Source of the DNA: Phycisphaerales bacterium
GTDB taxonomy: Bacteria > Planctomycetota > Phycisphaerae > Phycisphaerales > SM1A02
Assembly: GCA_029260575.1 (NCBI GenBank)
Contig: JAJDDB010000027.1
Coordinates: 498,501 to 562,500, forward strand
DNA length: 64,000 bases
Reading direction: 5' to 3'
Shown here piece by piece: positions 30,428 to 43,969 of the stretch. Each line of letters opens with the position of its first letter. Positions within the stretch are counted from its first letter, which is position 1. The position numbers were made by a program, and so were the translations under genes. The notes under the pieces were generated by a model. That model was not told the origin of the DNA. It searched no databases and saw only the letters and a program-made list of their open reading frames with translations.

Positions 30428-31639
30428 ATGACAGACCACGACATCCAATCCAAGCATCAGGCAACGCTTGCCATTCACGGCGGGCAAGCTCCGGAACCTA
30501 TCACCGGCGCGGTCATGCCGCCGATTACGTTGTCTTCGACGTATGCACAGGCGTCGCCCGGCGAACACAAGGGCTTTGAATATTCACGATCGCACAATCC
30601 CACGAGGTATGCACTTGAACGCTGCATTGCGAAGCTCGAATCGTCGCCGTTGACGCGGGAGCAGGATGTCACGCACGGCGGCTTTGCGTTCAGCAGCGGC
30701 CTTGCATCGACAGCCACAACGCTTGAACTGATCGATTCGGGCGCCCATGTCATTGCAATGGACGATTTATACGGCGGAACGTATCGTTTGATGACCAAAG
30801 TGCGCGAGCGCAGCGCCGGCCTGAACCTTACCTACGTCGACATGACCGATCTCGATGCACTACGCAGCGCGATTACTGATGACACGCGGATGATCTGGGT
30901 GGAGTCGCCGACGAACCCAACGTTGAAACTTGTCGATCTGGCGGGTGTCGCGGAAATCACCAGTGGCAGAAACATCATTACTGCGTGTGACAACACGTTT
31001 GCGACGCCGATGTTGCAGCGGCCGTTGGAACACGGCTTTGACATAGTGATGCATTCTGCGACGAAGTATCTCGGCGGGCACAGCGATGTTGTGGCAGGTG
31101 TACTGGTTACAGCTCGGCCGGAGTTGGCACAGCGGCTGCGTTTCCTGCAGAACGCGGTGGGTTCGGTGCTCGGGCCGTTTGATTCGTACATGGTGCTGCG
31201 CGGGTTGAAGACGCTGGCAGTGCGCATGCGTGCGCACTGCTGCTCTGCTGCGCGAATTGCGGAGTGGCTCGCAGCGCATCCAACGGTTGAACGAGTAGCC
31301 TACCCCGGTCTTGCATCGCATGCACAGCATGCGCTTGCCCAGCGGCAGATGCGCCTGGAGTGCTCCCCTGCCGGCGGCGGCATGATCACGATCTATCTCA
31401 AAGGCGGCATTGCTGAATCGCGGCGCTTCCTGGAAAATCTGCACCTGTTCGCGCTGGCGGAATCACTCGGCGGCGTGGAGTCACTGGTGGATCATCCTGC
31501 AATTATGACGCACGCATCAGTGCCGCCTGAGATCCGGGGCAAACTCGGGATCACTGACAATCTGTGCCGGTTGTCCGTCGGCATTGAACACCCCGATGAT
31601 CTGATCGCTGATCTTGAACAAGCGCTGGCGGCGGTGTGA
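30428..31639 (+). CDS. Cystathionine gamma-lyase/gamma-synthase family PLP enzyme
   Basis: 403 residues, Cys/Met metabolism PLP family. The PLP Lys is Lys213 in MHSATKYLGGHSDVVAG. Also seen: GAVMPPITLSSTYAQ, EYSRSHNPTRYALE, FSSGLASTATTLELI, DDLYGGTYRL, WVESPTNPTLKLVD and the C-terminal SLGGVESLVDHPAIMTHASVP. Sequence alone does not decide between lyase (makes cysteine) and synthase (makes cystathionine from homoserine esters). Operon position right after cystathionine beta-synthase favours the lyase reaction. Confidence 0.92.
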   Translation: MTDHDIQSKHQATLAIHGGQAPEPITGAVMPPITLSSTYAQASPGEHKGFEYSRSHNPTRYALERCIAKLESSPLTREQDVTHGGFAFSSGLASTATTLELIDSGAHVIAMDDLYGGTYRLMTKVRERSAGLNLTYVDMTDLDALRSAITDDTRMIWVESPTNPTLKLVDLAGVAEITSGRNIITACDNTFATPMLQRPLEHGFDIVMHSATKYLGGHSDVVAGVLVTARPELAQRLRFLQNAVGSVLGPFDSYMVLRGLKTLAVRMRAHCCSAARIAEWLAAHPTVERVAYPGLASHAQHALAQRQMRLECSPAGGGMITIYLKGGIAESRRFLENLHLFALAESLGGVESLVDHPAIMTHASVPPEIRGKLGITDNLCRLSVGIEHPDDLIADLEQALAAV

Positions 31640-31703
31640 GAAGGTGACCTGCCGCAGCGACACAGATGGCGCGGAGATGAAAGAACATTGGAAGTGAGCA
31701 TCT

Positions 31704-33710
31704 GTGTTCGAGTCATTTGATGATGCGATCTACGACGCTATTCGTTGCGGCGATGCAGACTCTGTTCGCCAAATAATTTGTGAGTGTCCACGCACTCCCG
31801 GAGATGAGCATTGGGCGATAAATACTGCAATTGACCACGATCCCGACTTGATTCATTTGTTGATCGCAGAAGGCATCAACGTTGATGTGCGAGACGACAG
31901 TCAGAACACCGTCCTCATGGATGCGGCCGCGGGTGGCAAAGACGCCAGCATTCGAATCCTGCTGCAACACGGCGCTGATGTGAATGCTCGCAATGCCTGG
32001 TGGGAAACGCCGTTCAGCTACGCATGTGCGTGGGGTCACGAAGAGACGGCGGCGCTCTTGCACGAGCATGGCGCGGATGTTAACTGCATCCACCGCACCG
32101 GTGGAACACCGCTCGATGACCGTGTCAGGACCGGGAATCACAAACCGGTCCGGGACTTCCTGCAATCCGCCGGCGCCCGACAGCAGCACGACATTCCTCG
32201 CGACGAAGCCCGAAATCACATAGGCCCGTGGTTCGATCTTGATCACGAAACGGTGAACGTGTTCGCCGAATCACCGTGGCGCCAGTATTCTTCGCTTATG
32301 ACGCACATCAAATTGGACTACGCGAACTGCTTGAACGGCCGGGTTGGTGAACATGGCATCCCTACGAGCGCACTTGACGGTGCCGCTGAGCGCATTGCAG
32401 CGATCACGAAGGATCTGGAAACAACGCGGGGCATCGGTTGGGAGCGCTGGCGGACGCTGCCGTTTGAACCGATGCGCAGTGAGCATGTCGCAGACGTCGG
32501 CAGACTAGTCGATCAGCATACCGGCGCGCAGAACCTGCTGGTGCTTGGTATCGGCGGCAGTGCGCTGGGCAACATCGCGTTGCAATCGGCGCTGAATCCT
32601 GTGACGTACAACCTGCAGCCGGACAATTATCGCAGCGGCCCCCGGCTGTTCGTGCTGGACAATGTCGACCCGGAGTTCGTCGGCCACACGCTTCGCTACA
32701 TCGAACAATCCGACCCCGGTTGGCATCACACCGTGGTCAACGTCATCAGCAAGTCCGGTGAAACCGCAGAAACCGCAGCGCAGTTCATGATCGCGCGGTC
32801 GATACTCCGGAAGACGATCGGCTCGAATTATGCGCAGCACATCGTTGCGGTCACTGACCCTGAGAAGGGCACAATGCGCAGCATATGTGATGCGGAGGGC
32901 ATCGATACGCTGCCCGTGCCGGAGGGTGTGGGCGGGCGGTTCAGCGTGTTGTCTCCGGTCGGACTGTTCAGCGCAGCAATGTGCGGCATCGACATCAACG
33001 CGCTTCTTGACGGTGCTGCAGCAATGGATGAACGATGCCGAGCGACTGATATGCGCGCGAATCCCGCTGCGATGCTGGCGTTTCTGCTTATGGAATTGAC
33101 ATCGCATGGCAAGCCGAATCATGTGTTGATGCCGTACAGCAACCCGCTGTATCTGCTTGCGGATTGGTTCCGGCAGTTGTGGGCGGAATCGCTGGGCAAG
33201 AAAGTGGATACGAGCGGCGCGACGGTGCATGCCGGAGCAACGCCGATCAAGGCGCTGGGCACGACGGATCAGCACAGCCAGGTGCAGTTGTATCGCGAGG
33301 GTCCGAACGACAAGGTGATCGGGTTCGTTGAAGTTGCGGAGATTGATGATGATGTCACCATCCCCAGCGACCTGGAGATAGAGAATCTGAAGTATCTGCA
33401 CGGCGCGACGCTGGGTAATTTGCTGGCTTCGGAGAAACGGGCAACGGAATATGCGCTGGTGGAAAGTCAACGGCCGAACTTCACGCTTACGCTGCCGCGG
33501 CTTGATGCGGATTCCGTCGGTCAGTTCATTCAACTCTGGGAAGTCACGACTGCGTATGCAGGGCGAATGTTGAACATCGACGCGTACGACCAGCCGGCTG
33601 TCGAGACAGGCAAGAAGGCAACATTCGGCTTGATGGGGCGCGACGGCTATGGTGAGTGGAAGCAGAAGGTTGATGCGGCGCTGGCGCCGACGGAATACGT
33701 AATTGAATAG
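31704..33710 (+). CDS. pgi: Ankyrin-repeat / glucose-6-phosphate isomerase fusion
   Basis: 668 residues in one uninterrupted frame. Residues 1 to about 170 are ankyrin repeats (HLLIAEGINVDVRDDSQNTVLMDAAAGGK, ILLQHGADVNARN, LLHEHGADVNCIHRTGGTPLDD). From about 199 (MTHIKLDYANCLNG) to the end is a full phosphoglucose isomerase: VLGIGGSALGN near 280, NVISKSGETAETAAQF, EGVGGRFSVLSPVG, HAGATPIKALGTTDQHSQVQLYREGPND, and a C-terminal GMLNIDAYDQPAVETGK-type end. It interconverts glucose-6-P and fructose-6-P. Normal bacterial PGIs begin near residue 199, so the ankyrin part is an added N-terminal module. The GTG at 31704 follows GGAAGTGAG. An internal ATG at 32298 could also produce a stand-alone PGI. 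Confidence 0.88.
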   Translation: MFESFDDAIYDAIRCGDADSVRQIICECPRTPGDEHWAINTAIDHDPDLIHLLIAEGINVDVRDDSQNTVLMDAAAGGKDASIRILLQHGADVNARNAWWETPFSYACAWGHEETAALLHEHGADVNCIHRTGGTPLDDRVRTGNHKPVRDFLQSAGARQQHDIPRDEARNHIGPWFDLDHETVNVFAESPWRQYSSLMTHIKLDYANCLNGRVGEHGIPTSALDGAAERIAAITKDLETTRGIGWERWRTLPFEPMRSEHVADVGRLVDQHTGAQNLLVLGIGGSALGNIALQSALNPVTYNLQPDNYRSGPRLFVLDNVDPEFVGHTLRYIEQSDPGWHHTVVNVISKSGETAETAAQFMIARSILRKTIGSNYAQHIVAVTDPEKGTMRSICDAEGIDTLPVPEGVGGRFSVLSPVGLFSAAMCGIDINALLDGAAAMDERCRATDMRANPAAMLAFLLMELTSHGKPNHVLMPYSNPLYLLADWFRQLWAESLGKKVDTSGATVHAGATPIKALGTTDQHSQVQLYREGPNDKVIGFVEVAEIDDDVTIPSDLEIENLKYLHGATLGNLLASEKRATEYALVESQRPNFTLTLPRLDADSVGQFIQLWEVTTAYAGRMLNIDAYDQPAVETGKKATFGLMGRDGYGEWKQKVDAALAPTEYVIE

Positions 33711-33718
33711 GTGTTCCG

Positions 33719-35527
33719 TTACGGATTGACAGGCGTGCGCCAGAGCATTTCGGTATCGCGCTTATCGACAACGACTTCATGCAGAGGGACATAACCGGCA
33801 GTTGTAAGAGCGGTGTTGTGTTCATCGGTCTGGCGGGCGAGAACGTAGCCGGTGCCGCTGGTCTGGCGGGCAAAATCCGTAAGTTCATCGAGCCGCACCC
33901 ACGGAATGAGCCGGCCGAAATAGATGCGAAACTCTTCGTTGAGAATGAACGCGCGATCGACGCCGGAGATGCGCAAGGAGCGCAGCGGCGCATCCCCCAC
34001 TTCCTGGCGCAGCTCGAATGCGACGGGCTTGACGGGATGATCGCCGGATGCTGCCCTGCTGTAGCACTGCCAGAAGACAGTCATCAGGACAATGCCCCAG
34101 ATGCCGGTCAGCGCGAATGCGGCCAGTGGTTTGCCGCGCCGATGTATGCGCCATGTCATCAGCGCGAGCACGGTGAGCACAACAGTGATGATGATCGCAG
34201 CCGGCCAGGTGACGGAACCGACGGCTGGTTCGTGCAGCGCTTCCAGTTGCTGTGCGACATCCTGTTTGGCTGTGTACTGCACGAGCCAGTTCTGCAGCGT
34301 GAGAAACGGTCCGTAGAACAGTGACACGAGCAGCATGGAAATGCCGTGTACGTTGACCCAGCCGGAGTAGCCGTCGGGCGTGCGACCCTTGCGCAACATG
34401 GAATCGTGATCGCGCCACACGAAAGCAAGCAGCAGCGCAACCGCCGGGATGATCGGCAGGATGTAGCGCTGCTGCTTGGTCGGGTGGATGGAGAACATGA
34501 TGAAAATGACGAGAAGCCACAGCCACGGCAGCAGCCGCGTTCGAAAACCGATGCGCTTTCCGTCCATGAATGGATGCGCAACTGCTGCGATCATCCACAC
34601 GGACCATGGCGCAACGAGTGCAAATATGCCCAGGTAGTAATAGAACGGCTGCGATGAATCGCGCATGGCTTCGAACTCCACGCGCAGCCGATCGTCTGCA
34701 TTCTTGACAGTGTTGTGAATCGTGACGTACCACGGCACGACCGCAGCGAGTGAAATCGCAACCGCGCCCAGCAGGCCAGCGACACTTGCGATTTTGCGGC
34801 GCGGGCTGATAGCGATCGCAAGAACGAGCGGGCCGAGTACAACTGGATACGCCAACGGATTCTTGCTGAGCGCTGCGGCAGCGAGGGCTACGCCGGATAC
34901 GGCCCAGCCGGTGATGATGCGACTGGTTGCGAGTGCGGTTTCTTTCGGTCCGATCGCCCACAGCCCCGCCGCAATGGAAAGCGTTGCAAAGGCGACGAAA
35001 TGAATGTCGTAGGAGGCGGTGCGGGCCTGTCTTTGAAAGAACACGGTCGCACCGGCTGCGAGCGCAGCACTGGCTGCGAGCGCGACATCATCGAGTGTCA
35101 GGCCGGCCCAGTAGATTGCGATCAATGTGAGCAGACCCATGCAGACAGCCATGAGTCGAGCACGATAGATCAACGTGTCCGCTGTTGCGGTTTCAGGGTC
35201 AAGGCCGGTCCACGCAAGCATCTGCTGCCAGGTCACCATCGGCGGCTTGGCAATGCGCGGAATTGTATCGTTGTATGACAAATACCAGTCGTAGTCCGAC
35301 TGGGCGTGCATGCGCAGCCAGGTTTCTTGTGAGACGACCAGCGCAACATTTTCCATGGTGTGCGTGGTATCGCGGCTGCCGAGGCTGATGAGCAGTGGCG
35401 GCAAACACAGCAGCAGCACAAACACCAGCGGCAGCCAGCGGCGTGTGATGCCGCGCGTTGCGCCGCGTGGTGTGTGATTGAGCCGCTGCATCGGCGGCGC
35501 GATCGAGCTTTCATAATGGCGTGCCAT
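33719..35527 (-). CDS. GT39/ArnT-like membrane glycosyltransferase
   Basis: 602 residues with about 11-12 membrane segments. The first periplasmic loop has the family signature ENVALVVSQETWLRMHAQSDYDW followed by IPRIAKPPMVTWQQ, equivalent to the acidic patch and KPP of ArnT/PMT enzymes, which use polyprenyl-phosphate sugars. Later segments include FQRQARTASYDIHFVAF, AALSKNPLAY, WYVTIHNT and HPTKQQRYILPIIPAVALLLA. Acceptor unknown (lipid A, glycolipid or protein). The ATG at 35527 is chosen; the frame opens at 35599 and another Met lies at 35491. It converges with pgi, with only 8 bp between stops. Confidence 0.82.
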   Translation of the reverse strand: MARHYESSIAPPMQRLNHTPRGATRGITRRWLPLVFVLLLCLPPLLISLGSRDTTHTMENVALVVSQETWLRMHAQSDYDWYLSYNDTIPRIAKPPMVTWQQMLAWTGLDPETATADTLIYRARLMAVCMGLLTLIAIYWAGLTLDDVALAASAALAAGATVFFQRQARTASYDIHFVAFATLSIAAGLWAIGPKETALATSRIITGWAVSGVALAAAALSKNPLAYPVVLGPLVLAIAISPRRKIASVAGLLGAVAISLAAVVPWYVTIHNTVKNADDRLRVEFEAMRDSSQPFYYYLGIFALVAPWSVWMIAAVAHPFMDGKRIGFRTRLLPWLWLLVIFIMFSIHPTKQQRYILPIIPAVALLLAFVWRDHDSMLRKGRTPDGYSGWVNVHGISMLLVSLFYGPFLTLQNWLVQYTAKQDVAQQLEALHEPAVGSVTWPAAIIITVVLTVLALMTWRIHRRGKPLAAFALTGIWGIVLMTVFWQCYSRAASGDHPVKPVAFELRQEVGDAPLRSLRISGVDRAFILNEEFRIYFGRLIPWVRLDELTDFARQTSGTGYVLARQTDEHNTALTTAGYVPLHEVVVDKRDTEMLWRTPVNP

Positions 35528-35621
35528 GTGCGCACCCCACTCTACGGCATCTGCAGGGTTGGTGCAGTGTCGATGCAACGGCGTACTGCGAATGAACATC
35601 CTTGTTTTTGGTGGAGGAGAA

Positions 35622-35698: not shown

Positions 35699-37171
35699 TT
35701 AGCCGAGCAATTGCAGCACTGCTTGCGGCTGCGAGTTGGCGATTGCCAGAGACTGCGTCGCTGCCTGTGCCAGAATCTGCTGGCGGGTCAGGTTTGCGGT
35801 TTCCTGAGCGAAGTCCGTGTCACGGATCGCTGATTCAGCCGCAGCGGTGTTCTCGAGCGTAACGCTGAGGTTATTGATCGTCGAGCCGACGGTGTTCTTG
35901 CTGAACGCGCCGAGTCGTCCACGGAGCGTGGAGATCTGCTTGGCCGCCTTGTCGACGATCTTCTGTGCCTTGGACAAATCACCGTTGGTAACGTTGGCCG
36001 CACCGCCGGACTTCATTGCCGAGAGGAAACCGTCAATAGAATCACCGAGGTTACCAGTGGTGACGGTCTCGATACCGAGTGATACCTTCGAGGCAAGCGA
36101 AACTTTTGGCGAGAGGTTGAAGTCCGCGCCGCCACCGGTGATGGTGAATGTTTCAGTGCCTGTGGTGGTGTTGATTGCACTTGTTCCGTTGAGTGTGACA
36201 GATACGTCAAACCCGTCGCTGGAGACTCGTGCTTTCAGGCCGTCCGTAGTGGCCGTGATTCCGTTGATGAGGACGACTGCGTTCCGCCCCAGGTCTTTGA
36301 GGTCCTGACCCTCGGTGCCGCTTAGGTCAACGGCCGTTTTGATTATGTCATTCCCAGTCCCGCCGTCTTCTAGTATTTTCACCCGCACAAAGGCGTTTGT
36401 TCCATACTCGAGTGACGAGATGTTGACGGTGTTGCCGGAGACAATAGCCGAGACACCAATCGAATCCTTGAAGGTATTGATGCCTGTGACAATATCTGCC
36501 TGGGCGGTGCCGGATGCAAACGTGAACTGCTGCACGCCGTCGAGACCAGTGATCTCGATTGTCAACGCGCCGTTGTTCCCGTTTGCGAGGTTGGCGCCGG
36601 TTGACAGGTACAGGGTGCCTGTCTGAGCGGATGTCGAGACATCGACGGTGACGTCAATTGTCGCGCCGGCCGCGTCGGACAGGCGTGCTGAATTGATCGA
36701 CACATCATCGAGCAACGCAGCATTAACGCCTGTCGTGGTGTAATCGAAGTTGCCGTTAAGCAGTTTCGTACCATTAAAGCTTGTTGCGTTTGCGACACGG
36801 TCAATCGTCTGAAGGATCGAATCGATCTGAAGCTGATTGGCTTCTTTCTCTTCAGCAGACACGCCTGCATCGTTTGCGGTTGAGCCGACCAGCGACTGCA
36901 GCTCAACCAGAAGATTGTTGATTTCCTGAAGACCACCCTCTGCAACGTTGGCGACCTGTTCGGCCCGCTGGGCGTTGCTGATGGCCGCATTGATGGCCTT
37001 CTGCTCAGCACGCAGCGTTTCGCTGGCGATCAGACCGGCTGGATCATCGGCACCGCGGTTGATCCGCAGACCGGTGCTCAGGCGTTCGAGGCTGGTTGTC
37101 AGATGCTTGTTCTGAAAGTTTAGAACTCGTCGAGCAAGCATTGACGAGACATTCGTGTTGATACGACTCAT
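35699..37171 (-). CDS. fliC: Flagellin (copy 1)
   Basis: 490 residues; filament subunit. The conserved N-terminal D0/D1 region is clear (MSRINTNVSSMLARR..., LSTGLRINRGADDPAGLIASE), as is the C-terminal D1/D0 region (GRLGAFSKNTVGSTINNL, AESAIRDTDFAQETANLTRQQILAQAATQSL, PQAVLQLLG). The middle 200 residues are the variable outer domain. GGAGG precedes the ATG at 37171. It has its own sigma-28-like promoter and a leader of about 217 nt with several hairpins, so it is regulated separately from copy 2. It is the last gene before the terminator. Confidence 0.95.
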   Translation of the reverse strand: MSRINTNVSSMLARRVLNFQNKHLTTSLERLSTGLRINRGADDPAGLIASETLRAEQKAINAAISNAQRAEQVANVAEGGLQEINNLLVELQSLVGSTANDAGVSAEEKEANQLQIDSILQTIDRVANATSFNGTKLLNGNFDYTTTGVNAALLDDVSINSARLSDAAGATIDVTVDVSTSAQTGTLYLSTGANLANGNNGALTIEITGLDGVQQFTFASGTAQADIVTGINTFKDSIGVSAIVSGNTVNISSLEYGTNAFVRVKILEDGGTGNDIIKTAVDLSGTEGQDLKDLGRNAVVLINGITATTDGLKARVSSDGFDVSVTLNGTSAINTTTGTETFTITGGGADFNLSPKVSLASKVSLGIETVTTGNLGDSIDGFLSAMKSGGAANVTNGDLSKAQKIVDKAAKQISTLRGRLGAFSKNTVGSTINNLSVTLENTAAAESAIRDTDFAQETANLTRQQILAQAATQSLAIANSQPQAVLQLLG

Positions 37172-37225
37172 GGTGTCCTCCGTGAACACTTCGCCTTTAC
37201 GCGGCGACTGACGCAATCCGTTTCA

Positions 37226-37320
37226 GACTTGAGAATTCAAGTCCTCCCCGTTCCCTTGAATACGAGTTACTCGTGCAACCCGTTGACGCAACCCTTGGAT
37301 CAAGGCAAACCGTTTTGCCT
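37226..37320 (-). promoter_or_regulatory. Structured 5' leader of flagellin copy 1
   Basis: Four inverted repeats in 95 bp: GACTTGA/TCAAGTC (37226-37232, 37237-37243), ACGAGT/ACTCGT (37262-37274), CCTTG/CAAGG (37293-37305) and AGGCAAA/TTTGCCT (37303-37320); the last two overlap and could be alternatives. Just upstream (37329-37340) the transcript would read ACAGGAGCATGT, close to a CsrA-binding site, and another GGA sits in the ribosome site ACGGAGGAC. Confidence 0.5.
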
Positions 37321-37395
37321 CTCGCCGCACATGCTCCTGTCGGGCATTACTCACGAGGAACCGAATGCCTGACCCGTAGCAAATAGGCGTAAGGT

Positions 37396-37423
37396 GTATC
37401 GGCCCCACCCTTGAGGGACTTCA
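37396..37423 (-). promoter_or_regulatory. Sigma-28 (FliA)-type promoter of flagellin copy 1
   Basis: On the minus strand TGAAG, 15 bp, GCCGATAC. This matches the flagellar sigma-28 pattern TAAAG-N15-GCCGATAA at nearly every key base. The predicted start is near 37388, about 217 nt before the ATG. Confidence 0.7.
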
Positions 37424-37443
37424 GTCGCGTTCTTATTGGGAGA

Positions 37444-37613
37444 TGCACAGTTTCTACGAGACCGAAAAACACCGAACGATGATGCCTGGTCGTGGAATTC
37501 GCGATGCCAATAAAAACGCCCTGCCGATTCAGGCAGAGCGGATTGATTGATGCATGCGGTTATCGGTCACGTCGGAATTGGCTGCGTCGATTGACAGCAA
37601 GTCGCGAAAGTTT
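37444..37613. other. Spacer between the flagellin genes
   Basis: Contains the terminator of copy 2 and the upstream edge of the copy 1 promoter region. No gene recognised. Confidence 0.4.
37510..37541 (-). terminator. Terminator after flagellin copy 2
   Basis: On the minus strand CTGCC and GGCAG pair around a 6-nt loop, extended by GC pairs, and are followed by GGCGTTTTTATT. It lies about 75 bp beyond the stop codon. Confidence 0.7.
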
Positions 37614-39092
37614 TTATCCCAGCAGTTGCAAAACCGTTTGTGGAAGCGCGTTTGCCGTGGCAAGCACCGCCGTTCCAGCCTGTTGGAGCACCTGCGTACG
37701 GGCCAGTTGAGCCGTCTCATCCGCAAAATCAGCATCGCGGATCTTCGATTCACTTGCTGCCAGGTTCTCAACGCCGATCTGCAACGACCGAATGTTGGTC
37801 TGCACGGTGTTGCGTTCGAACGCGCCCAGCCGACCACGCGTGACCGATAAATCGGTGATCGCCTGATCGAGAATAGTGGATGCATTCTGGGCGTTGCCGG
37901 AGATCAGCGAATTCGCCTGTCCTGATTTGATTGAATCCAGGAAGAAGCGAATGCCGCCGAGCGTCGTTCCGCCGAGACGGCTGGTGGCAACGGACTGCAC
38001 GCCAATGCCGACCTGCTGTACAGCATTGATACTCGGACCAAGCTGAAATTCCGCGCCGCCGCCGGTTATCTGGAACGTCTGCTGCACGCCGGTTGTCTGG
38101 GCGAAAGCAGTGGACAGCTCAATTGCGACGCCGAGGCTCTGGGTGTTGAGCTCGACCTGCGTACCCTTGCCGGTGGCCAATGCGCCGTTAATGATTGCAG
38201 TCACATCCACGCCGGTGTCTCTGGTGGTGATATTTCCGCCTTGTGCGTCTGCCATAGAGAAGAAACTGCCGCCCTGCCCGATACGACGCACGGAGACGAA
38301 CTGCTCTGAGCCGTATTCAGTTGAGTTGAAGACGAGGCCGCTGGTCTGATCCGCCCCGTCAACGAGCGAAGCGCTGACGCCGGTGGATTCCTTGAGCATG
38401 TTTACCGCAGATGCGACAGCACTGAGCGTCGTTCCGGATGTGAACTGCAGTGTTTGCACACCGATGTTGCCAGCCAGTTCAATTGTCAGACTACTCAGCA
38501 GCGCGCCTGGCGAACCTGCAGTATTACCCGATAGAAACAGCTGCGCCGTCTGCGCTGAACTGATGACTTCGACATTGACCGCAACATTGGCGTTGTTGCC
38601 GAACTCTGCGGTGAAGATGCGGGCATCAAGAATGTTCGCAGTCGGCACGCCTGATGTGAGATAATCAAGCGAACCGTTGAGCAGTTGCAGCCCTGCGAAA
38701 CTTGCGGTGTTGGAGATGCGCGTGATCGAATCCAGGGCGCTGTCAATCTGCAACTGGTTGGCTTCGATCTCTTCCTTGCTGACGCCGCCGGTGTTGGCCG
38801 CTTCGACAACAAGCCCCTTCACAGAGTTCAGCAGATCTGCAACTTCAGCGAGATAGCCTTCTGTTGTCGCAATAACCGAGCTTGCGCGTTCGGAGTTGGT
38901 GATTGCCTGCCGAATACCTTTGAGTTCGCTGCGCAAGCGCTCAGAAACAATCAACCCTGCAGGATCATCAGCGCCACGATTGATGCGCAGACCGGTTGAC
39001 AGTCGTTGCAGCCGAGTGGTCAGATCGTTGGTTGTTCGTCCGAGCCGTGTTTGTGCAATAAGTGACGGGATGTTCGTATTGATCCTAGCCAT
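37614..39092 (-). CDS. fliC: Flagellin (copy 2)
   Basis: 492 residues. N-terminal MARINTNIPSLIAQTRLGR and LSTGLRINRGADDPAGLIVSERLRSE, C-terminal GRLGAFERNTVQTNIRSLQIG, AESKIRDADFADETAQLARTQVLQQAGTAVL and PQTVLQLLG identify it. It is similar in size to copy 1 but differs through the central domain, so the two probably form distinct filament segments or are used under different conditions. AGGAGG lies 6 nt before the ATG. It follows csrA by 102 bp on the same strand. Confidence 0.95.
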   Translation of the reverse strand: MARINTNIPSLIAQTRLGRTTNDLTTRLQRLSTGLRINRGADDPAGLIVSERLRSELKGIRQAITNSERASSVIATTEGYLAEVADLLNSVKGLVVEAANTGGVSKEEIEANQLQIDSALDSITRISNTASFAGLQLLNGSLDYLTSGVPTANILDARIFTAEFGNNANVAVNVEVISSAQTAQLFLSGNTAGSPGALLSSLTIELAGNIGVQTLQFTSGTTLSAVASAVNMLKESTGVSASLVDGADQTSGLVFNSTEYGSEQFVSVRRIGQGGSFFSMADAQGGNITTRDTGVDVTAIINGALATGKGTQVELNTQSLGVAIELSTAFAQTTGVQQTFQITGGGAEFQLGPSINAVQQVGIGVQSVATSRLGGTTLGGIRFFLDSIKSGQANSLISGNAQNASTILDQAITDLSVTRGRLGAFERNTVQTNIRSLQIGVENLAASESKIRDADFADETAQLARTQVLQQAGTAVLATANALPQTVLQLLG

Positions 39093-39194
39093 GGCAATCC
39101 TCCTTGATTGTGGCTAGCGCCGTCGAGCGGCGTTCCTGAAAAGAGCGAGACAGTCATCACGGATCATGGTGGACGTGACTTCTCGTGGCGGACA

Positions 39195-39485
39195 CTACGC
39201 AGTCTCCCTCCGGAGCGGCGTTGCAGTGGCGTCGAGCTTGGACGCCCGTTCAGCAGTGTTGTCTGCGCATGGCGGCGTCAAGCCACACAGCGCATCCTCA
39301 TCAAAGCGCACCGCCTGTTCATTCTCCCGTCGTATCGCTTCGTACACCTCCTTGCGGTGTACGGGAATGTTCGGCGGCGCTTCGATACCAATCCTGACCT
39401 TGTCGCCGCGGATGTCCACGACTGTCAGTTCGATCGCATCACCGATCATGATCGTTTCGTCACGCTGTCGTGAAAGGACCAGCAT
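39195..39485 (-). CDS. csrA: CsrA, carbon storage/translational regulator (extended)
   Basis: 96 residues. The first 60 match CsrA closely: MLVLSRQRDETIMIGD, ELTVVDIRGDKVRIGIEAPPNIPVHRKEVYEAI, including Arg6 and Arg44, which contact GGA motifs in RNA. The homodimer blocks ribosome access to target mRNAs. About 35 extra residues (FDEDALCGLTPPCADNTAER...) extend the C-terminus beyond the usual 60-75. AAGGAAGGAG is an excellent ribosome site and fixes the start at 39485. Position between fliW and flagellin is the classical arrangement for flagellin control. Confidence 0.95.
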   Translation of the reverse strand: MLVLSRQRDETIMIGDAIELTVVDIRGDKVRIGIEAPPNIPVHRKEVYEAIRRENEQAVRFDEDALCGLTPPCADNTAERASKLDATATPLRRETA

Positions 39486-39562
39486 GGGTCGGCTCCTTCC
39501 TTCAGGCGGATGGACGCAGCATTGTTGCTGCGACAATCCAAGAGGCCTCCGTGCCTCAACCC

Positions 39563-39587
39563 GGCGCGTCTGTGCGCGCCAATTTTT
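39563..39587 (+). terminator. Terminator-like hairpin on the plus strand between fliW and csrA
   Basis: GGCGCG (39563-39568) pairs with CGCGCC (39575-39580), followed on the plus strand by AATTTTTTCG. All genes here run on the minus strand, so it would end an antisense transcript. As an mRNA hairpin on the minus strand it could also separate fliW from csrA expression. Confidence 0.45.
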
Positions 39588-39631
39588 TCGACGCCGCCCG
39601 CAACTGATGCTGCGAATGACGAGACAGTTTC

Positions 39632-40078
39632 CTACGCCGTCGCTGCCTGCAACGGTTGACTGACATCCACAATGGCGTGCCGTGTTGTCCAGCGTTTTTC
39701 CGCCAGCACCAACTGCATCGCAGTGCGGTTGTATGTGTTCACAATCAGCGGTCCCTGCAGATTTGCAGTCAGCGTGCGGTCGTATTTGTTGACAATGCAG
39801 AACACCTGCGCATCGTCAATGCTTGCAAGGCCCATCTCAGCCATCTGTTCCGTGCGGATAGATGCCTGGAAACCGTTGACCCACAAACTCGGATCAGTCA
39901 CCACGAACGCCAGCTCCGGCGATTCGATGGACTGCAACCAATAGAACACGCCTTCATCGCTTGGCTGCAGCAATGCATACTGCGTGTACTTCGCAAACCC
40001 CAACAAACCAGCCGGGAATGTAATGATCCGGTTGTCATCGACCTTCACCGGTCCAAATCGAGTCGTCTCCACGTTCAT
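39632..40078 (-). CDS. fliW: FliW, flagellar assembly factor
   Basis: 148 residues. FliW binds and inhibits CsrA allosterically and is itself titrated by unassembled flagellin. Seen: MNVETTRFGPVKVDDNRIITFPAGLLGFAKY, YALLQPSDEGVFYWLQSIESPELAFVVTDPSLW, and NLQGPLIVNTYNRTAMQLVL near the C-terminus, all in family order. GGAG before the ATG at 40078 supports this start over the longer frame. csrA follows after 146 bp. Confidence 0.95.
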   Translation of the reverse strand: MNVETTRFGPVKVDDNRIITFPAGLLGFAKYTQYALLQPSDEGVFYWLQSIESPELAFVVTDPSLWVNGFQASIRTEQMAEMGLASIDDAQVFCIVNKYDRTLTANLQGPLIVNTYNRTAMQLVLAEKRWTTRHAIVDVSQPLQAATA

Positions 40079-40204
40079 TGGACGCTCCACTATTCGGCCT
40101 TCCAATCCTTGGTCTTCCCGCCGACACTCCGCCTGCGGGTGGACGTCCTGTCCGGGCTGTGCGTCGATCCGGCCGAAAGATCGACAACCCGATTTACGTG
40201 CGCG

Positions 40205-42190
40205 CTACCGGAGAAAATCCAGCAGCGACAGGGACAATGATCTGCTTGCTGTGGTCAACCCCGCCTGCAATTGCGTCTGCAACGTGGCAAAACGAATGGC
40301 TGCCTCGGTGTAATCCAAATCCTCAACTTCACTTCGCAATGCGGTGTCCTGCAATTTCAAATCCTCTTCACGAGTGACGGCATCGGAAACTTGCCGGGTC
40401 CGCACGCCGACTGTGGCGCGAGCCTCTGCAACCTGGGGGATGTCCGTCTCAATACGGCTGGTTGCAAGGGATATGCCACGCGAGTCATTGGCCAGCAATG
40501 CATCGCGAAGGGCGATCAGGTGGCTGAAGACACTGTCGACTGCAACTTTTGCGCGGTCTTCGCCGGTGATTACTGCGCTGCTCGTCGATTGTTCGATGCC
40601 AAGATTTGCAGCGGCGTGCGAGCCGTTGAGTGCAGTCACCGACAAATTACCCGCCCCGCCTGTGCCATCTCCAAGTTCGATGCCGTTGCCATCGCCGGCC
40701 AGCCGCGCTTCAAATTCGCCCGGCACGGCAATGCCCGCAGTGGTTGCTGCAGCGTTGATTGCGTCAATGGCATCCTGCACCGTCGCTGCGCCTGCGAGAT
40801 CGACATCAAATGTCTGTGCGTCCTTCAGCGTGACTTGAAAGTCCAGATCCCGGCTGGGGTCGGGTAATCCGCTGACGGGGTCAGTCCCGCCGGTGAGAAT
40901 CTCTACGCCAAGCCCGTCGTTGAAGTCGCTGAGCAATGTTGAGCCGGTGAAGCTGCGTACACCAAGCTGCGTTCCGGTGTTGCCGCCGGCGACTTCGGCA
41001 ATTGCCATCTGCCCGCCGGAGAGTTCATTGATGAAAGTCAGCCGATCGCCTGCATCGTTGATCTCGATACGGATGCCGATGTCGAGCGCTGCGACGGCAT
41101 TCTGAATATCCTCGACCGTTTCGGCGCCACTGAGATCAAGCTCGCGAACCAGACCGGCGTTGCTCAGGCGGATGGTTCCGAGCGGTGTCGTCACACCCGA
41201 CAGTTGCGTCAATGCCGTGCGCGTTGTCAGCAGCGGCTTGATATCAGCGCCGGTTGTGCTGCCTGCGTTGAACGTACCGCTCAGGCCGAGATCAACCGCA
41301 GCTCCATCGCCGTTGATGTCATCAATCGTGACGGTGACGCCGCCGCTGGGGATGATTTCAAATCGGTCGCCGGTGACAGGATCGATCTGGACAGTCGCGC
41401 CTGCATCAACAGTTTGAATGCCGGCCTGCAGCGCATCGACAACATCCTGCACGGTATGTGCATCTGTCAGATCAACCTCGACATCGGTGCCGTTGACATC
41501 GACATTGATCGTGGTGAGGCGAACGCCGAGACCGAGCGCGCCATCAAGATCGGCAATCCGCGTATCCGCAACCATAGATGGGTCAAGATCACGATCACCT
41601 TGCACGCGGGCGCTGAGCGCGCCGAATGCAGTCGTCCCAGACATGGTAATCGGCACGTTGCGGGCATCGCCAAGGTCAGTTGTCAGTCCGTTGCCCTGTC
41701 CAACATAGCGAATGCCGTTGAGTACACTTTCAAATGGTTGCGTGTTGGTGCGCGAACCGCCGAACAGTTGAATGTTCTGGTAATCGCGGTTGGCGATCGT
41801 CGTCAATGAATCGATCATCGCAGTGATTACAGCTGCCTGGTTGGCCCGCGTGTCGGCATCGGAGGTCGCCCCGATCTGGCTCATGCCGATGCTTTGGGCT
41901 TCCAACAACATGTCCGAGACATCGCCGAGCGATGCATCGACATTGTTCAGCGTCGCTTCCGCATGACTGAGATTGCGCAGCCGTTGATCGCGGCGCTCGA
42001 TGACATCATCAAGCACAGTGATCATGCTGGTGGCAATGACATCATCGGAAGGACGATTGACCGCCCTGCCGGTTGCCATCTGGACCTGCAGATTCAGCAG
42101 CAGACGCTGGGTGTTGCCGAGTTGGCCGGCCGCCATCTGACTGGCCAAAAGCGTCGGCACGCGACCGATGTTTGAAGGAAACGATGTCAT
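40205..42190 (-). CDS. flgL: FlgL, hook-filament junction protein with large insert
   Basis: 661 residues, about twice the usual length. N-terminal IGRVPTLLASQMAAGQLGNTQRLLLNLQVQMATGRAVNRPSDD and C-terminal SRIETDIPQVAEARATVGVRTRQVSDAVTREED, RSEVEDLDYTEAAIRFATLQTQLQAGL are FlgL-type. Between them lie at least three flagellin_IN-like repeats (AHTVQDVVDALQAG, AETVEDIQNAVAAL, AATVQDAIDAINAA), each followed by a beta-rich stretch. These inserts should protrude from the junction. The gene begins 29 bp after flgK ends. Confidence 0.9.
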   Translation of the reverse strand: MTSFPSNIGRVPTLLASQMAAGQLGNTQRLLLNLQVQMATGRAVNRPSDDVIATSMITVLDDVIERRDQRLRNLSHAEATLNNVDASLGDVSDMLLEAQSIGMSQIGATSDADTRANQAAVITAMIDSLTTIANRDYQNIQLFGGSRTNTQPFESVLNGIRYVGQGNGLTTDLGDARNVPITMSGTTAFGALSARVQGDRDLDPSMVADTRIADLDGALGLGVRLTTINVDVNGTDVEVDLTDAHTVQDVVDALQAGIQTVDAGATVQIDPVTGDRFEIIPSGGVTVTIDDINGDGAAVDLGLSGTFNAGSTTGADIKPLLTTRTALTQLSGVTTPLGTIRLSNAGLVRELDLSGAETVEDIQNAVAALDIGIRIEINDAGDRLTFINELSGGQMAIAEVAGGNTGTQLGVRSFTGSTLLSDFNDGLGVEILTGGTDPVSGLPDPSRDLDFQVTLKDAQTFDVDLAGAATVQDAIDAINAAATTAGIAVPGEFEARLAGDGNGIELGDGTGGAGNLSVTALNGSHAAANLGIEQSTSSAVITGEDRAKVAVDSVFSHLIALRDALLANDSRGISLATSRIETDIPQVAEARATVGVRTRQVSDAVTREEDLKLQDTALRSEVEDLDYTEAAIRFATLQTQLQAGLTTASRSLSLSLLDFLR

Positions 42191-42219
42191 CTCATCAATG
42201 CTCCAAAGTCTCGTCGAGT

Positions 42220-43914
42220 TCAGGCGATTGACAACAACGTCTGCAGCGCTTCATCAATTACCGCGATGAAGCGGGCTGCTGCCTGGAACTGTCGTTGATA
42301 TGTCAACAGGTTTATTGATTCTTCATCCAGCGACACGCCGGAGACACTTTGAATCTGTGTATAAAGGTTTTCGCGAACCAGCGAATTGGTCGTCACTGCG
42401 TCGTTGGCTGCATCCGTGCGTACTGCAAGATTGTTTACAGATGACTGCCAGTATTCACGTAGGCTTCGATCGCCGAGATCTGAAATACTCGTATCCTGAA
42501 GGCCTGCAATGGCAAGTGCAGTTCCGTTGGACCCACCGATGTGATCAGCACCCATCGAAAGCAGGTTGGTGTTGTTGACGACAGTGTCGTTAACGCCGAC
42601 ATCCGTTGCATCTTTACCGGTGAAGAACGTATTGATTCCCAGTGCGGCCAGCGCGCCGGAAGAATCTTCGGAGAAGCTGAGTTCGTACCCAGCCGCAGCG
42701 TTCAACGTGAATTGATTGTTAGTACCTAAACCCGCTGTAACGTTGGGTACGCCGATGGTGGTGTTGATACGACTTACCAGATCGTCCAGTGAATCGGCAT
42801 TGCCATTTACGTTGACCTGGTAACTCTCGCGGTTCCCGGTCTGGGAGTTGGTAACGTGCAGTACTAAGCTGCCGTTGCTGATGGGAAAGCCGAGGTCAGC
42901 ATCGGTACTGTTGAGGTTGGCCGTGGTGTCATCCACCGAATACGTGCCGGTGATGCTGGTTTGACCGATGCGCCCCTGCCCCTGCGAGTGCAGACGGTTG
43001 ACCTGAAAAATGAGTTGGCTGGTGAACTGATCCAGCGCATCAATGGTCGGCTGAATGGTCTCATCGCGCTGTCGAAGCAGGCCGCCGATCTTCCCCTCGG
43101 TCGGGTTGAGGAGCGTTCCATCAGCAGCCACGCGGATGCTGACGCCGCCCTGGCCGCCTTGGGATTCCTTGCGCACCTCGATGCCGCGCGATTGCGCAGC
43201 AAGTACAACAGGCACTGAATCAATAAAGATGTCCGTCGAGCCGGTGGACTGTTCAACGACATCGATATCCACTATGCCCGACAAATTATCGATCAGCACA
43301 TCGCGCTGATCACGCAGCGCGCTGGCTTCTCCTGCGGTGCTCTCAGCGAGCGCTATTTCGCGATTGATTTCCGCAATACGATCAAGCAAACGATTTGCTT
43401 CATCAACCGAAGCGCCGAGGGCGCGATCGACTTCGCTGCGCACTCCAGTCAAGTCGCCGCGCATGGACTGCAATCGATCCGCAAGGCTGGAACCCTGAGT
43501 AATCACCAGCGAGCGCACGGAATTGTCTTCTGCGTTGTTTGCCAGCTCGCTGAACGAATTGAAAAACTCGCTGAGCATGCTGGAGATGTCATTGTCCGTC
43601 AGTTCATTCTGGATGGTTTCAATTGCAGAGAGGAACCGTTGATCCATGATGGATGCCTGTTCCTGACTGACGGATTCGCGAAATCGTGACTGCAGTGCAG
43701 TGTCAACTTCACGGCGAACTGCGACAAGATCGACACCGAGGCCGACGAACTGATTGCGCCCTGCTTGCTGACCCTGCAGCGGTGTGAAGTGTACACGCCG
43801 CCGCGCGTAGCCTTCGGTGGCTGCGTTGGCCATGTTGTTACCTGCGACCTGAATCGCAGCCTGGCTTGCGAGCAGCGCCGAACGGCCGACGTGCAATGCT
43901 CCGTTGATACTCAT
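42220..43914 (-). CDS. flgK: FlgK, hook-associated protein 1
   Basis: 564 residues. The N-terminus MSINGALHVGRSALLASQAAIQVAGNNMANAATEGYARRRV is the flagellar rod/hook consensus. ISSMLSEFFNSFSELANNAEDNSVRSLVI, INREIALAESTAGEASALRDQRD and the C-terminal SGVSLDEESINLLTYQRQFQAAARFIAVIDEALQTLLSI complete the family pattern. With FlgL it joins hook to filament. I chose the ATG at 43914 because homologues start there; the frame is open 51 nt further. flgN, its likely chaperone, ends 55 bp upstream. Confidence 0.94.
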   Translation of the reverse strand: MSINGALHVGRSALLASQAAIQVAGNNMANAATEGYARRRVHFTPLQGQQAGRNQFVGLGVDLVAVRREVDTALQSRFRESVSQEQASIMDQRFLSAIETIQNELTDNDISSMLSEFFNSFSELANNAEDNSVRSLVITQGSSLADRLQSMRGDLTGVRSEVDRALGASVDEANRLLDRIAEINREIALAESTAGEASALRDQRDVLIDNLSGIVDIDVVEQSTGSTDIFIDSVPVVLAAQSRGIEVRKESQGGQGGVSIRVAADGTLLNPTEGKIGGLLRQRDETIQPTIDALDQFTSQLIFQVNRLHSQGQGRIGQTSITGTYSVDDTTANLNSTDADLGFPISNGSLVLHVTNSQTGNRESYQVNVNGNADSLDDLVSRINTTIGVPNVTAGLGTNNQFTLNAAAGYELSFSEDSSGALAALGINTFFTGKDATDVGVNDTVVNNTNLLSMGADHIGGSNGTALAIAGLQDTSISDLGDRSLREYWQSSVNNLAVRTDAANDAVTTNSLVRENLYTQIQSVSGVSLDEESINLLTYQRQFQAAARFIAVIDEALQTLLSIA

Positions 43915-43969
43915 GGTTCGCGTCCCTGCGAAAATCGTGTACGGGTTCCATCCACCCGCCGACATATTC

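Follow-up and report, generated by a model that had tools for sequence, protein, structure and literature searches.

The question raised by this locus is whether an ankyrin-repeat domain and a phosphoglucose isomerase (PGI) that share a reading frame are made as a single protein, as the plain enzyme, or as both. Within the window, by which we mean the whole 64,000-nucleotide stretch of Phycisphaerales DNA that was analysed, the frame runs on the + strand from a GTG start at 31704 to 33710 without an internal stop (668 aa), and an in-frame TGA at 31695-31697 lies closely 5' of the GTG. Pfam places Ank_4 (E 1.7e-15), Ank_2 (E 1.8e-14) and PGI (PF00342, E 3.5e-39, residues 276-638) on this one protein, which confirms the claim of an earlier, sequence-only reading that ankyrin repeats and a complete PGI are joined in one stop-free frame. 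The scores of both domains are far above chance, which cannot be said of the in-frame junction alone. Judged by its sequence, the fusion is real and, so far, without a second example; it involves the only PGI gene detected in the genome, which is complete. The best reading, to which we assign a probability of about 60%, is that it would be a lineage-specific nested gene giving two forms of PGI.

The PGI occupies residues 199-668 of the fused protein and is complete; ortholog comparison and PF00342 delimit a native reading frame of 470 aa with an internal ATG start (32298..33710, + strand). The PF00342 profile scores 135.2 bits against a curated cut-off of 22, and the best NCBIfam match, the PGI model PRK14097 (residues 199-658), scores 257.7 bits, under its strict cut-off of 443. 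On these profile matches, we class the enzyme as a PGI by PF00342 that lies outside the narrow PRK14097 equivalog model. Residues R412, E495, H524 and K637, which we take to be the catalytic positions of PGI, are invariant across an alignment of 37 sequences, and no second PF00342 match was found in the 4.11-Mb genome (41 contigs). The best solved relative by sequence is the Thermotoga maritima PGI 2q8n, matched from residue 262 on, and comparison of the predicted fold with 2q8n_A gives 42% identity and a TM-score of 0.93 (by target) over 451 columns. Residues 199-668 match nearly the whole of the short bacterial PGI represented by 2q8n and PRK14097, from which the window protein differs by 198 extra N-terminal residues with ankyrin repeats.

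Taken alone, residues 1-198 score 64.2 bits with Ank_4 (cut-off 22.7) and 59.4 bits with Ank_2 (cut-off 27.3), and five stacked helix pairs are predicted between residues 5 and 155, in keeping with the structure of ankyrin repeats. The ankyrin part covers residues ~5-156 (31704..32171, + strand). Of the ~170 residues of ankyrin claimed earlier, the repeats themselves stood up and the length did not: it comes to ~150 residues, followed by a linker of ~40 residues with low pLDDT (residues 157-198; 32172..32297, + strand). In the AlphaFold2 model of the fused protein (mean pLDDT 84.6; input of 37 aligned sequences, with relatives in the alignment for the PGI part only), the PGI lies mostly above 85 after residue 200, and the ankyrin blocks lie at 71-84 up to residue 130, but at 56 for residues 61-70 and at 51-55 from 131 on; block values across residues 131-200, linker included, are 39-57.

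Codon statistics were obtained with genes and gaps set by a simple long-frame rule. The ankyrin part reaches 0.235 bits/codon, the average of genic 40-codon windows being 0.30, and the 40 linker codons 159-198 reach 0.237 bits/codon, which is the 33rd percentile of 1863 genic windows; among 1740 intergenic frames 5.9% score as high, a share that rises to 11.4% for the 638 without a stop. A first codon model, trained on the 64-kb window alone, gave the linker 0.19 (19th percentile). Codon usage in the linker thus appears to lean weakly to coding.

Six further ankyrin frames of ~400-640 residues are found in the same genome, with Pfam repeats in all six; Pfam detects no enzyme domain in any of them, and one carries DUF1573 and an Ig-like domain. 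Two long ankyrin-repeat genes adjoin at G000 C16:285866-288532. A small free-standing ankyrin protein in a related locus (L003) has repeats similar to those of the window (E 6.8e-15, 32% identity); by eye, its frame stops about ten residues past the last repeat, whereas the window frame goes on into PGI. Nine phage records match the ankyrin part, with a best listed identity of 38%, and give no pointer to its source.

It had also been suggested that an internal ATG at the normal PGI start could give two forms. ATG 32298 (residue 199) does coincide with the starts of orthologous PGIs, and the idea of two forms is backed by a conserved, leaderless-type promoter element directly before it: the -10-like TATTCT (32286..32291, + strand), 6 nt before the ATG, takes positions -12 to -7, the motif position of leaderless genes. 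The 60 bases before the native ATG were compared in 87 of 108 distinct ortholog rows (at least 56% identity, ATG, full length), the excluded rows being the window itself, L121 (without ATG) and 19 rows below 56% identity. A TANNNT hexamer with its end 5-8 nt upstream of the ATG is present in 75 of the 87 (exactly 6 nt in 57; 5, 7 or 8 nt in 18), whereas 200 shuffles gave 2.0 on average and never more than 6. The information content is 0.88, 1.2 and 0.91 bits at columns -12, -11 and -7, and averages 0.04 bits outside -14 to -7 and -1; since the other upstream columns share almost no information, shared ancestry by itself does not account for the motif. L105 and L090, where pgi abuts or overlaps the neighbouring gene cgl, are among the 12 orthologs that lack the element.

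TANNNT about 12 bp before the start is described as a mark of bacterial leaderless genes (PMC3160421, 2011), and a 2025 paper states that, in Deinococcus radiodurans, the motif was experimentally validated as a -10 region of leaderless transcripts (PMC12340547). These leaderless genes (in PMC12340547, of Deinococcus-Thermus) share motif and distance with the window, and the 75 orthologs agree within 1-2 nt; the window element differs in lying inside a longer open frame. The string 'planctomyc' is absent from the texts of both papers.

Two other accounts of the region before the ATG were set aside. A conventional promoter for pgi is countered by the lack of any sigma-70-type match on the + strand of 31400-33800 and by a -35 element that is not enriched in orthologs (mean of 2.64 matches in the 75 orthologs versus 2.67 in shuffled sequence; 3/6 in the window). 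A conserved peptide would be in frame at 6 nt, yet 18 of the 75 motifs stand at 5, 7 or 8 nt, and the stretch from the upstream in-frame stop to the native ATG contains no ATG, GTG or TTG in 36 of 86 orthologs. In 400 kb of the genome (G000 C27:1-400000; 456 ATG candidates of 235 long frames), TANNNT lies 6-9 nt before the ATG 26 times versus 8.3 expected from other distances, which suggests leaderless-type starts beyond pgi, probably as a minority mode in this genome. Because TATTCT is kept inside the fused frame, we consider production of the normal short PGI from the internal ATG to be well supported.

The arrangement was said to be unfamiliar from other PGIs, and it is equally foreign to related loci: ankyrin repeats stand in front of PGI at none of 124 distinct PGI places (own genome removed), which are mainly best matches and hardly cover distant PGIs, such as the ~30%-identical type of many family members. 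By identity, 97 of the places fall at or above 56%, 23 at 45-56% and 4 below; the pooled loci include the best 80 of 254 relatives and 12 taken mostly for their long open frames. By phmmer, with E values up to 1 admitted and extensions of 20 residues or more compared, none of the 124 places showed an ankyrin-like in-frame extension. In the 119 places that offer 60 nt or more of upstream sequence (at least 600 nt in 114 of them), scanning as far as 3 kb before pgi gave no convincing ankyrin match (best E 0.16). The candidate that ankyrin precedes other PGIs with long upstream frames was rejected, as 18 such extensions gave no match to the ankyrin part; by eye, the long extensions look like unselected reading frames.

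In 201 genomes of the order and 392 of the phylum (overlapping samples; whole-protein query, few candidates scored per genome), none of the PGI matches listed beyond the own genome reaches residues 1-153. Among the matches listed, PGI orthologs are up to 72% identical in these genomes and up to 73% in 121 family genomes (PGI part). Ankyrin matches as such are common (present in 60 of 61 relatives), and 192 plasmid records match some part of the fused protein, none of them covering 80% of it in one place. The closest relatives are, by name, metagenome assemblies of Phycisphaerales and other Planctomycetota, with other phyla among the more distant ones. A conserved ankyrin-PGI family, in the sense of a fusion in more than one genome, was not found, and an ankyrin-PGI fusion goes unmentioned in the titles and abstract openings of literature on ankyrin with phosphoglucose or glucose-6-phosphate isomerase.

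The usual upstream neighbour of pgi in close relatives is cgl, which encodes a Cys/Met metabolism PLP enzyme (30428..31639, + strand, in the window). Neighbour mapping covered loci L071-L090 and L097-L176 and, with same-contig loci removed, gave 15 distinct relatives in which pgi is preceded by cgl in the same orientation, the gap between alignment ends being 0-216 nt in 13 and ~0.94 and 1.02 kb in the remaining two. Among L071-L090, 6 of 20 loci have no cgl upstream (in one of them the sequence extends just 392 nt that way), and over their 3 kb the more distant loci mostly lack it, so this gene order is a feature of the closer relatives. In the window, the gap is 658 nt and is filled by the ankyrin gene reading in frame into PGI. 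In the closest relative, L071 (G009; 72% at PGI), the gap is occupied by an independent 279-codon frame that ends at a stop of its own and has a weak LTXXQ match, and the other long gap, in L075 (G094), holds sequence without a Pfam or NCBIfam match. The ankyrin gene is probably a lineage-specific filling of a spot that is variable elsewhere too.

With ~1 kb of unrelated sequence in L071 and L075, the cgl-pgi gap may be a spot that gains DNA often. Mobile cargo was considered for the L075 frame, which looks transposase-like by eye, and was dropped as Pfam and NCBIfam gave no match. A search for target-site duplications or flanking repeats as a trace of insertion returned short imperfect repeats only, which are likely due to chance. 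In L072 (G031), a frame that is pseudopilin-like by eye lies upstream of pgi and is preceded by the end of a very similar second copy.

We propose that a small ankyrin-repeat gene came into the short cgl-pgi gap in this lineage and that, with no stop before pgi, its frame would continue across the former upstream region of pgi into the enzyme. The original promoter of pgi, comprising the -10 element and a transcription start at or next to the ATG that yields a leaderless mRNA, would survive in the joined frame and give the ordinary 470-residue PGI, and ribosomes that initiate at GTG 31704, on transcripts extending from cgl, would give the 668-residue ankyrin-PGI. Two promoters would then set the proportion of normal to tagged PGI in the cell. 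The frame, its domains, the synteny and the conserved element are observed; from them we infer that TATTCT acts as a promoter here and gives a leaderless mRNA, that translation also begins at the upstream GTG, and that read-through from cgl supplies the mRNA for it. Against this reading weigh the lack of an enriched -35 element and of a sigma-70-type match, and the 12 orthologs without the -10 element. The GTG start lies 64 nt 3' of cgl and is preceded at 9 nt by GGAAG (31690..31694, + strand), a putative Shine-Dalgarno-like sequence; the 64-nt gap has no TA dinucleotide, and hence no TANNNT or other -10-like element before the GTG, in keeping with read-through from cgl. If the GTG is used, the long form follows, since no stop intervenes before the end of PGI.

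The overlap could instead be incidental, with an ankyrin gene that lost its stop and is now silent or decaying, and with the short PGI as the only product, a possibility that we find doubtful but not negligible. Stop-free frames are common: the 1740 intergenic frames mentioned above, each of 39 codons, include 638 of them, and at least 38 open codons stand upstream of the native ATG in 41 of the 87 orthologs. The open frame across the junction is weak evidence for a fusion protein, and with chance in-frame joining quite possible, no claim of selection for the fusion can be made. An incidental overlap also fits the lack of a -10-like element in the 64 nt upstream of the GTG, the absence of the fusion from all 124 related places and the poorly ordered linker; low linker pLDDT would be expected equally for read-through of non-coding DNA. 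On the other hand, the ankyrin repeats are intact and score well, their codon use is gene-like, the Shine-Dalgarno-like GGAAG precedes the GTG, and the codon use of the linker is moderately gene-like too.

A fusion under selection, in which the ankyrin domain would bind a partner and position or regulate PGI, along the lines of the earlier reading, is unlikely. It would suit a protein whose flexible-looking linker connects a predicted ankyrin solenoid to a complete enzyme, the only PGI match of the genome, in a genome whose six other ankyrin frames are without a Pfam enzyme domain. Against it stand the single genome, the 119 relatives' stretches without a convincing upstream ankyrin gene, and the lack of any indication that the long form predominates. 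With the fusion in one genome, selection on the long form is not measurable, and a localising or regulating role is without comparative support; synteny and the poorly ordered linker fit the merging of two neighbours at least as well as a selected regulatory domain. That a mistake in assembly or base calling erased a stop or frameshift and so joined two separate genes is very improbable: the genome is incomplete (41 contigs, 95.3% complete), but the locus is interior to an 808-kb contig and codon preference for the same frame carries on across the junction.

The nested gene with two products remains the preferred reading, and a more speculative extension of it, which we hold only tentatively, is that an ankyrin-tagged PGI, translated from an mRNA in common with sulfur amino-acid genes, would form mixed assemblies with plain PGI made from the nested leaderless promoter, and that these assemblies would place or tune the sole PGI of the cell. 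Another PGI that shares its chain with an upstream domain, judging by the model name, is the bifunctional transaldolase/PGI of model PRK09533. The window protein matches this model weakly (136.1 bits, below the cut-off of 712) and best over residues 260-500, in the PGI part only. The partner in PRK09533 is an enzyme of sugar metabolism; the window protein carries a binding repeat instead, and its gene keeps the native PGI start signal. If our reading is true, a domain fusion onto a central metabolic enzyme has been caught with the old start signal still present, and shows a fusion arising without loss of the original protein. The comparative evidence for leaderless-type starts in Phycisphaerales would also bear on start-codon annotation there.

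On the 3' side of pgi, a flagellin gene on the other strand is found in 11 of the 20 loci L071-L090 and likewise in the window, where a flagellar block with three flagellin-like genes and FlgK extends over 35699-43965 (- strand). Between pgi and flagellin, 33719-35599 of the window encodes a 626-aa protein with no Pfam match and a weak match to an aminoarabinose transferase family; relatives of this protein occupy the same place in L072 and L084 (40-41%) and, in part, in L085 (32%).
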